The position numbers and the translations under genes are program-made. The notes beneath the pieces were generated by a model. It made no database searches. It had not been told where the DNA came from and saw only the letters and a list, made by a program, of their open reading frames with translations. A stretch of DNA of 64,000 bases from Kovacikia minuta CCNUW1 (GTDB lineage: Bacteria > Cyanobacteriota > Cyanobacteriia > Leptolyngbyales > Leptolyngbyaceae). Location: assembly GCF_020091585.1 (NCBI RefSeq), contig NZ_CP083582.1, positions 3,906,001-3,970,000 on the forward strand. Reading direction: 5' to 3'. Below are positions 36,942 to 41,885 of the stretch, piece after piece; position 1 is the stretch's first letter, and each line of letters begins with the position of its first letter.

Positions 36942-38351
<1,410 letters not shown>

Positions 38352-38406: not shown

Positions 38407-39474
38407 TCAGACAGATGCGTTACGGGCGTATTGGTTATTAATCAAGTTGATCAGCTCAGCATAGTTGTGTCGATCAGATACTCCTCCAGCGTCAGCAATC
38501 AAATCGAAGGAACCATCCATATTCAACGACCAACCAAGGTCATAATTTCCTTCTAGAACTGCAACAATATCGGCTTTTACTTTTTGCCCGTCGTAACCAC
38601 GAACATCACTATCAACCAGTACCGTAAAGCCTAGTTGCCCAAGAGACAGCTTCAGGAGTTCCAAGTCTGTCATCTTGGTGCGAATTACGCTGAAATGTCC
38701 ACCGCCTGTGATCAAAATCTGACGCAATCGCTCAAAAAGTTCTGGAGGAATATCAAGTTTGACCCCAATAAAACTCAGATACCCTGGCGGTTCACTCAGA
38801 TGTACGAAACAGCCTTCAGCTTGGGAGTATCTCAATTGCTTGAACTCAGAAATCGCTCCTTTAAAGTTCTCATCTAACCAATGAGCCATCGCTTGTGAAT
38901 AAGTTCGTAGCCAGCTAAATTCCGGCATTGAAAATCTTTCAAGTCTTCCGAGGACAGCAACAATACGATACACTTCAAATCGATTTCTCTCGTCCAATGC
39001 TTTTTTCAATGCAGAAGCTAAAGCACGGGAAACGGGTGGTTGCTCGTATACCAAAGTTGCTAGCTCGTTAGCATCTCTCGGCAGAGTCAGTTGTTCACCC
39101 TCAACAACAAGGACGTAAGGATTCAAAATAGCTTCAACTCGAAAGGCTAACTCCTCAAGCTTAAATGGTTTGGTCATGTAATCTAGCATTGGTGGAAATG
39201 TCCGCACCTCAGTTACATCAGAAATAAGCAACAAGATAGACGCTTCTGTACGGCTTTGGATTTCACTGAATAAAGCACCATTATCATTCAGCAGATACTC
39301 TCTGATGATGACTAGATCAGGCTCAAACGCTTGGAAGACGCTCATCGCTGCATTGAGGTTTTCGGCAGAAGCTATTTGATAATTCTGTCTATTTCTATTT
39401 AAGAAGTTGTAGATGCGATCGCGGATTTTTTGGTCACTATCAACAATCAGAATTTTGGCAGTAGCCATAGCCAT
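38407..39474 (-). CDS. Pseudo-receiver protein fused to a Ycf35/DUF1257-like domain
   Basis: A 355-residue protein. Residues about 1-120 form a CheY-like receiver (AKILIVDSDQKIRDRIYNFL, with YMTKPFKLEEL as the Lys-Pro switch), but the phospho-acceptor position reads DLVIIREYLL, with Arg where Asp is expected, so phosphorylation is unlikely. A helical middle region (about 130-235) is followed by a C-terminal domain from HFSVIRTKMTDLELLKLSL to LINNQYARN. This resembles Ycf35/DUF1257, a small conserved protein of cyanobacteria and plastids. The start ATG 39474 follows AGGAG at good spacing. It is convergent with chlN. The function is unknown, and it may be a phosphorylation-independent regulator. 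Confidence 0.75.
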   Translation of the reverse strand: MAMATAKILIVDSDQKIRDRIYNFLNRNRQNYQIASAENLNAAMSVFQAFEPDLVIIREYLLNDNGALFSEIQSRTEASILLLISDVTEVRTFPPMLDYMTKPFKLEELAFRVEAILNPYVLVVEGEQLTLPRDANELATLVYEQPPVSRALASALKKALDERNRFEVYRIVAVLGRLERFSMPEFSWLRTYSQAMAHWLDENFKGAISEFKQLRYSQAEGCFVHLSEPPGYLSFIGVKLDIPPELFERLRQILITGGGHFSVIRTKMTDLELLKLSLGQLGFTVLVDSDVRGYDGQKVKADIVAVLEGNYDLGWSLNMDGSFDLIADAGGVSDRHNYAELINLINNQYARNASV

Positions 39475-39816
39475 TAGAGTACTCCTGCGCTAGTTTTTCC
39501 ACCGCGTTGCACCCTAGAAATAGAACATCAGCTTCCTTGCAAATTAAATTTCTTACTTGCAAGAATACCCAAAAATGAAAAGCCATCAGAACATCGCAAT
39601 TACTTACGGACTTGTGATGAACTATACAATAGCTCAAACTTTCAGTTCATTTAATGCTCTTTGAAATCATCTTTGACCCAAGCGCTGTTCAAACGCTACT
39701 CTTTGGTTATTGTGCGGTGGCAGATAACCTCGAACACTCATCGATAACCTGCGTACCACTACACCAACGCCGCGTTGTGCCGCACAACTCACAGAGGACT
39801 TTTATACTACCAAAAG

Positions 39817-40259
39817 TTACAGCCATGATTCCAGAGAAAAAGGCTGCGCTTGCTGAATTCGGACAAAATCGCTGTCGGCAGACACAACAATAAGACTATG
39901 CTGGATTGCTGTTGCTACAATCCAGAGATCATGATCACAAATCCTAAATCTCCAACGCTTGTACTTCGGCGTTTATTTTTAACTTTAGGCGCAAATTGAT
40001 TGAAAACTGCCGTTTTGAGTTGACTGTAGAGAATGGCGGTTTCTTCATCAATGAAGTATAAATCAACATTTGCTAGAAAAACTTGAACCGCTGCAAGGTT
40101 TTGAGCTTTTCGTTCTGATTTTTCGGTCATGTAGAGTAGTTCACCATACGTGATGATGCTAACACCGATTTCGTTGATAGAACGAGAACGCAATGCAGTG
40201 ATGACGCTAGGAGTGTTATTGATGATGTAGCTGCAATGATTGGTATCCAGGAGATACAT
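39817..40259 (-). pseudogene. PIN-domain (VapC-like) toxin, frameshifted
   Basis: The frame from ATG 40259 encodes a PIN ribonuclease toxin (MYLLDTNHCSYII with the first Asp; SIITYGELLYM with Glu). It derails after [11 protein letters not shown]. From about 39938, the other frame continues as expected for the family, [20 protein letters not shown] then [20 protein letters not shown], and stops at 39817-39819. One missing base near 39938-39942 restores the full gene. Without it, the catalytic DHD and final Asp are lost. The antitoxin gene 11 bases upstream is also damaged, so the module is probably dead. Confidence 0.8.
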
Positions 40260-40850: not shown

Positions 40851-41885
40851 CTAACGAAGAAATTTCCGAATTAGATGGCGAAGATGCAGCATCCATCGTT
40901 GTAGGAGTGTTGGCGGCTGAGCGGGTAAGGGCGATCGTTCCTCCTGTTTATAACCCATTACAGGAGATGCACCGATCGCCTCATAAAGCTTATACTCACC
41001 ACTTTTCCCAGGAATTTTCACCAGAAAGGACTGATTTACCACAACCTGATCCTTGACCTCGTTGTAGGCATCCTCAGAAATCAGAAGGGTGGTGCCAAGG
41101 GTTTTGTTTGCAGTTTCAATCCGGCTGGCAAGATTGACCGCATCGCTGATCGCAGTCCATTTCGGGTTTTTAGGGTCGCCGATCGTTCCAATCACCGTAT
41201 TGCCGTAGTGAATCCCAATCCCAATTCGCAACCGATGGTGATAGAGCGCTTCCAGGGAAGGATTCAACCGCTCCAGTGCATCCAGCATATCCAGTCCGGC
41301 TCTGACTGCCCGTTCCACTGCCCGATCGGGATTTTCGATGCCAAACAGTGCCATTAACCCATCGCCCATGTAAACGTTGATGATGCCTCCATGACGCTGA
41401 ATTTCCTGGTTCATCAGTTGGAAATAGCGATCGAGGACATAAATCACGTCGTAGGGCAGAAGCGCTTCTGAGAAAGAAGTGAATCCCCGAATGTCGGCAA
41501 ATAGAATCGCGATTTGCTGCTCCAAGCCTTTGAAACTAGGGGCAACTTTGCCAAACGCTTCATCATGGAACATGCCGATATCATGGGCATCTAGAGACAG
41601 CCGCCGCAGGGCAATTTTGCCCTCACACACAATCTCGGTCTGACAGGCAAGCCGCACCTCTGGCGTAAAATTCAACCGTTGCGCCAAAGCCTGCTCCGCC
41701 AGATTGCGGGGACTACAGTATTCCAACCCTTCCGTAACCAACACTCTGCACGTCGAGCAACGGGCATTACCCCCACACACATGGGTATGGGGGATGCCCG
41801 CTTCCAACGAAACATCGAGTAATGTAAACGATTCCTGCCCCGGTTCAATCAGGCGATCGTCGGGCAGATAGTAGACTTGACGCAT
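40851..41885 (-). CDS. Adenylate cyclase with N-terminal [2Fe-2S] ferredoxin domain
   Basis: A 344-residue protein that joins a plant-type ferredoxin domain (about 1-95; ligands Cys37, Cys43 and Cys46 in HVCGGNARCSTC, and Cys81 in RLACQTE) to a class III nucleotide cyclase (about 120-320). Metal-binding Asp residues are in LFADIRGFTSFSE and YMGDGLMALFG. PKWTAISDAVNLASRIET carries the Lys and Asp typical of ATP-using enzymes. It has no membrane segment. cAMP synthesis controlled by cellular redox state or iron-sulfur status is a reasonable inference. A last hydrophilic tail (RWMLHLRHLIRKFLR) is basic. Confidence 0.9.
   Translation of the reverse strand: MRQVYYLPDDRLIEPGQESFTLLDVSLEAGIPHTHVCGGNARCSTCRVLVTEGLEYCSPRNLAEQALAQRLNFTPEVRLACQTEIVCEGKIALRRLSLDAHDIGMFHDEAFGKVAPSFKGLEQQIAILFADIRGFTSFSEALLPYDVIYVLDRYFQLMNQEIQRHGGIINVYMGDGLMALFGIENPDRAVERAVRAGLDMLDALERLNPSLEALYHHRLRIGIGIHYGNTVIGTIGDPKNPKWTAISDAVNLASRIETANKTLGTTLLISEDAYNEVKDQVVVNQSFLVKIPGKSGEYKLYEAIGASPVMGYKQEERSPLPAQPPTLLQRWMLHLRHLIRKFLR

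Follow-up and report, generated by a model that had tools for sequence, protein, structure and literature searches.

The genome of Kovacikia minuta CCNUW1 carries, in a 64,000-nucleotide (nt) stretch of NZ_CP083582.1 (the window, to which coordinates refer unless stated otherwise), a gene whose product joins an atypical response-regulator receiver to a DUF1257 domain. The gene is a frame of 355 codons on the minus strand, opens with ATG, and comprises the following features, with the basis of each assignment in parentheses.

38407..39474, minus strand: fusion gene encoding a pseudo-receiver, a helical linker, and DUF1257 (Pfam domains, intact frame)
39482..39486, minus strand: Shine-Dalgarno-like sequence AGGAG, 7 nt upstream of the ATG (read from the sequence)
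39121..39474, minus strand: pseudo-receiver domain, residues 1 to 118 (Pfam, paralog alignment, predicted structure)
39436..39438, minus strand: codon of Ser13, which replaces the second Asp of the acidic pair (paralog alignment)
39301..39303, minus strand: codon of Arg58, where a receiver would have its phospho-acceptor Asp (paralog alignment)
39223..39225, minus strand: codon of Ile84, which replaces the switch Thr (paralog alignment)
38701..39120, minus strand: orphan linker, residues 119 to 258 (predicted structure, linker searches)
38410..38700, minus strand: DUF1257 core, residues 259 to 355, of the Slr0376-like subfamily and lacking the C-terminal tail that the free protein has (Pfam, tree, alignment)

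The gene is a genuine single-chain chimera with a well-supported architecture. Two overlapping genes in place of a fusion were rejected, given the unbroken frame and the missing start Met of the free DUF1257 protein at the junction; the in-frame TTG codons 250 and 254 leave a slight chance of an internal start.

Residues 8 to 112 matched Response_reg (PF00072; 33.9 bits; Pfam gathering cutoff, 30.2 bits; those of DUF1257, HisKA, and NACHT are 22.2, 26.9, and 26.7 bits, respectively), which bears out the CheY-like domain with Arg for the phospho-acceptor Asp that a preliminary description of the locus had reported. The nearest receiver paralogs in the genome are two tandem OmpR-type regulators (C1:141-142 kb; 46 to 50% identity). 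Compared with these, Asp12 and Lys102 are retained, Asp13 is changed to Ser, the phospho-acceptor Asp to Arg58, and the switch Thr to Ile84, and the alpha4-beta5 stretch is 4 to 5 residues shorter, with the gap preceding DYMTKPF. As judged from these residues, the domain is a pseudo-receiver that has lost its phosphorylation chemistry, not a phosphorylatable receiver. The receiver part of the AlphaFold model has the receiver fold (solved receiver structures match at Z of ~15), and residues 87 to 104 mostly have a predicted local distance difference test score (pLDDT) of <50. Trans_reg_C, the winged-helix DNA-binding domain, was not matched in the fusion protein by Pfam, which places it outside the OmpR/PhoB regulators. 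On the paralog comparison, the receiver reads as the product of duplication of an OmpR-type receiver, with another domain taking the place of the DNA-binding one.

DUF1257 occupies the place of the parent regulator's effector domain, which favors a true signal-output domain, switched by binding of a ligand or partner to the pseudo-receiver, like quinone on the pseudo-receiver of CikA. A possible signal-output role had also been raised in the preliminary description. However, no ligand pocket or partner was identified and DUF1257 has no known activity, and we regard such a switch as unlikely.

At the other end of the protein, DUF1257 (PF06868) was matched at residues 278 to 353 with 50 bits (E = 3.7e−13) against a cutoff of 22.2 bits, so the family assignment made earlier holds. 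The genome contains six DUF1257 copies, two of them fused (the window gene and L005) and four free, as follows.

L001: canonical Ycf35, 128 amino acids (aa), preceding a ferredoxin gene (operon)
L002: DUF1257 copy, 126 aa, adjoining an AAA+ ATPase gene
L003: DUF1257 copy, 117 aa, adjoining a Ycf46-like AAA+ ATPase gene
L004: lone DUF1257 copy, 117 aa

In a tree of 73 DUF1257 domains, whose fine branching is rough because the columns are few and the bootstrap had not settled, the fused window domain pairs with L005 (support, 90/86) within the AAA-adjacent 117-aa group, and canonical Ycf35 and the L002 group are separated from it by a branch of length 1.39 (support, 99/99). The tree thus assigns the domain, likened to Ycf35 in the preliminary description, to the Slr0376-like subfamily (AAA-adjacent, 116 to 117 aa) and not to Ycf35 proper, of which the genome has its own copy in the ferredoxin operon. 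We infer that the AAA-adjacent subfamily is Slr0376 of Synechocystis from length, operon order, and the literature, not from its sequence. The canonical Ycf35 cluster is DUF2997-ycf35-ferredoxin (PMC4284462). Slr0376 (116 aa) appears in a list of signature proteins shared by all or most cyanobacteria (PMC2823733). Its gene closes the stress operon slr0373-slr0374(ycf46)-slr0376 (PMC7496141, PMC7283877) and ranks with those expressed most strongly (PMC3516471). In this genome and in relatives, the free homolog adjoins an AAA+ ATPase gene. The fused core is 62 to 64% identical to the free Slr0376-like copy of the same genome; the fused copies retain every residue that is invariant across the sequences compared and have lost the last ~20 residues (the tail), and three fused proteins (window, L005, and L140, described below) terminate at or near NAS.

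The C-terminal region was confidently modeled as a compact alpha/beta domain (pLDDT, ~83 to 96 in the full AlphaFold model; alone, mean pLDDT, 89, and predicted template modeling score [pTM], 0.81) with the order strand-helix-four strands-helices. Foldseek returned no match to this model at E of <0.001. With a second structural aligner, many KA1 and AMPK alpha C-terminal domains were recovered, all at Z of <8 (best Z, 6.6; Chk1 KA1; 78 aligned; root mean square deviation, 3.2); a KA1-like fold is a lead only, since Z lies under the level for claiming a shared fold. A sequence search found no solved DUF1257 structure.

Between the two domains, the AlphaFold model shows two short strands, four helices up to residue 203, and then a low-confidence stretch. 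The best sequence matches of the linker (E of ~0.002 to 0.009) were BrxC proteins and a protein of 302 aa that itself matches TPR only faintly, too weak for use. Two candidate origins were rejected: the end of a Ycf46 ATPase, prompted by alignments from residue 148 across two adjoining genes (there was no real similarity, and the linker query alone misses Ycf46), and a worn winged helix (there was no alignment to the effector domain of the parent regulators).

DUF1257 has been joined to other proteins as well. L005, the second fusion of this genome (246 aa; L005:1519-2259; genome C1:1992885-1993622), matched HisKA (40.1 bits) and DUF1257 (58.2 bits) and no ATPase domain in Pfam, and its phospho-His position is Tyr (SYEIQSPLN versus SHELRTPLN), making it a dead histidine-kinase dimerization (DHp) domain. 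L140 (229 aa), from a different genus of the same family, combines DUF1257 with an N-terminal part that is helical and bears a weak similarity to L005 (E = 8e−4, single comparison). Hydrococcus sp. Prado102 carries a C-terminal DUF1257 on a NACHT-type nucleoside triphosphatase (NTPase) (L056:3-2570) in a gene cut by the contig edge and with a NACHT score (20.3 bits) below the cutoff, and another cyanobacterium (L174:1-2241) has NACHT (38.2 bits) and a C-terminal DUF1257, with a single in-frame stop separating NACHT from the remainder. The fusions to a pseudo-histidine-kinase in the same genome and to NACHT NTPases elsewhere strengthen the earlier suggestion that DUF1257 is a transferable module. 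DUF1257 had no match in plasmids, phages, or viral contigs, and the accessible portions of the literature naming DUF1257 describe no receiver-DUF1257 fusion.

That the two fusions of K. minuta might be partners, the pseudo-DHp and the pseudo-receiver docking like the former kinase and regulator and so uniting two DUF1257 cores, is suggested by their presence in one genome, by DUF1257 domains that are mutually closest (71% identity), and by the loss of the phospho-residue and the C-terminal tail in both. The fusion genes are, however, 1.95 Mb apart, and the parent kinases (~189 kb) lie close to the parent regulators (~142 kb) without adjoining them; we consider a partnership of this kind quite improbable.

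The best explanation, to which we give somewhat less than even confidence, is a chimera of an OmpR-type receiver and an Slr0376-like DUF1257 copy that serves as a phosphorylation-independent scaffold. Pseudo-receivers often dimerize or dock proteins independently of phosphorylation (PMC12632262). The pseudo-receiver would act without phosphorylation, as a dimerization or docking surface, the helical linker would space it from the DUF1257 core, and the core would bind the same partner as free Slr0376, with the Ycf46 ATPase as the leading candidate. If the core does bind that partner, the fusion would be a scaffold or competitor for it, placing an Slr0376-type core at a new site and bringing the partner to another complex, and L005 may act likewise, with its dead histidine-kinase dimerization domain as a further dock. 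The company that the core keeps, with an AAA+ ATPase in the operon and with NACHT NTPases, a dead receiver, and a dead kinase dimerization domain by fusion, is most readily accounted for if it is a protein-binding module, which is directly testable.

Several points weigh against the scaffold. The shortened and poorly modeled alpha4-beta5 stretch may spoil the usual dimer face, and the linker appears, by sequence, to have no clear family beyond a weak TPR-like resemblance. Binding of Ycf46 by DUF1257 is suggested by gene neighborhood alone, and no DUF1257 binding partner was found in the literature searched; to our knowledge, none is known. The full-length fusion protein, whose distribution had been left to be established, had no second member in 388 cyanobacterial genomes (best few candidates per genome scored), and with no orthologue in any genome searched, the fusion itself shows no cross-species conservation. 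A search with the linker alone, across the 388 cyanobacterial and 42 order-level genomes, matched only itself, and a scan of the genome collection returned no full-length relative of the fusion protein; since no relative was found in these searches, the fusion is species- or genus-specific on present data.

This singleton status also fits a lineage-specific chimera with little or no function that is heading for loss, as do the several lost receiver residues and a GC content at third codon positions (GC3) of 0.39, compared with 0.60 in chlN and 0.55 in a cyclase gene nearby; the low GC3 may point to a different origin. Against such a relic stand the intact 355-codon frame with its good ribosome-binding site, the retained invariant DUF1257 core, and a low nonsynonymous divergence (dN, 0.2 to 0.4) from the paralogs with synonymous divergence (dS) at or near saturation. 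Low dN at such dS means that each domain has been constrained for a long time, and it does not date the fusion itself. We judge decay to be improbable and prefer the phosphorylation-independent scaffold.

The fusion gene is convergent with chlN (36945-38351, plus strand), as first described. The order chlL-DUF5331-chlN is kept in 12/12 relatives, and in every one the gene after chlN is unlike that of the window, so the position next to chlN says nothing about function, and the chlLN neighborhood named in the preliminary description is uninformative. A chlorophyll-related function drawn from gene neighborhood was rejected, the fusion being absent after chlN in all 12 relatives. Just upstream of the fusion gene, 39915-40259 encodes a 114-aa PIN-domain protein, possibly a truncated toxin gene, and the cyclase gene (40851-41885) encodes a 2Fe-2S ferredoxin domain (Fer2, 37.3 bits) fused to an adenylate/guanylate cyclase catalytic domain (Guanylate_cyc, 77.3 bits). 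Two loci outside the window were also recorded. L141:1930-2574 encodes a 214-aa protein with one DUF1257 domain, the second half of which may be a strongly diverged repeat of it. L045:1039-1941 encodes a histidine kinase of 300 aa that is degenerate, having a Leu close to the phospho-His motif and what looks like a second DHp-like stretch, and adjoins an intact 241-aa soluble kinase.

The free Slr0376-type protein, a signature protein still lacking an explanation, is expressed abundantly, and its operon, which it shares with Ycf46, responds to stress (PMC2823733, PMC3516471, PMC7496141). Fusions reveal what a domain is used with and so offer a handle on binding by this widespread photosynthesis-lineage protein. 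More broadly, the Slr0376-like core might be a general cyanobacterial adaptor for AAA+/STAND-type NTPases, its repeated capture by dead two-component domains and NACHT NTPases showing an undescribed signaling or stress-response module, a generalization that we find unlikely.

Among known systems, the atypical OmpR-type regulators and pseudo-receivers CikA, NblR, and FrzS share with the window protein a receiver fold without a working phosphorylation site; in the fusion protein, the winged-helix output is replaced by the helical linker and DUF1257. The free Slr0376-like protein of the Synechocystis slr0373-slr0374-slr0376 operon belongs to the same DUF1257 subfamily as the fused core, but it is ~116 aa long, begins with MSHFS, and has a C-terminal tail, whereas the fused core has neither start Met nor tail. 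Plastid and cyanobacterial Ycf35 belongs to the same Pfam family and differs in forming a separate subfamily across a long branch. The NACHT NTPases L056 and L174 carry the same DUF1257 subfamily as their C-terminal module, with an N-terminal part that is a STAND-type NTPase with repeats where the window protein has a receiver instead.
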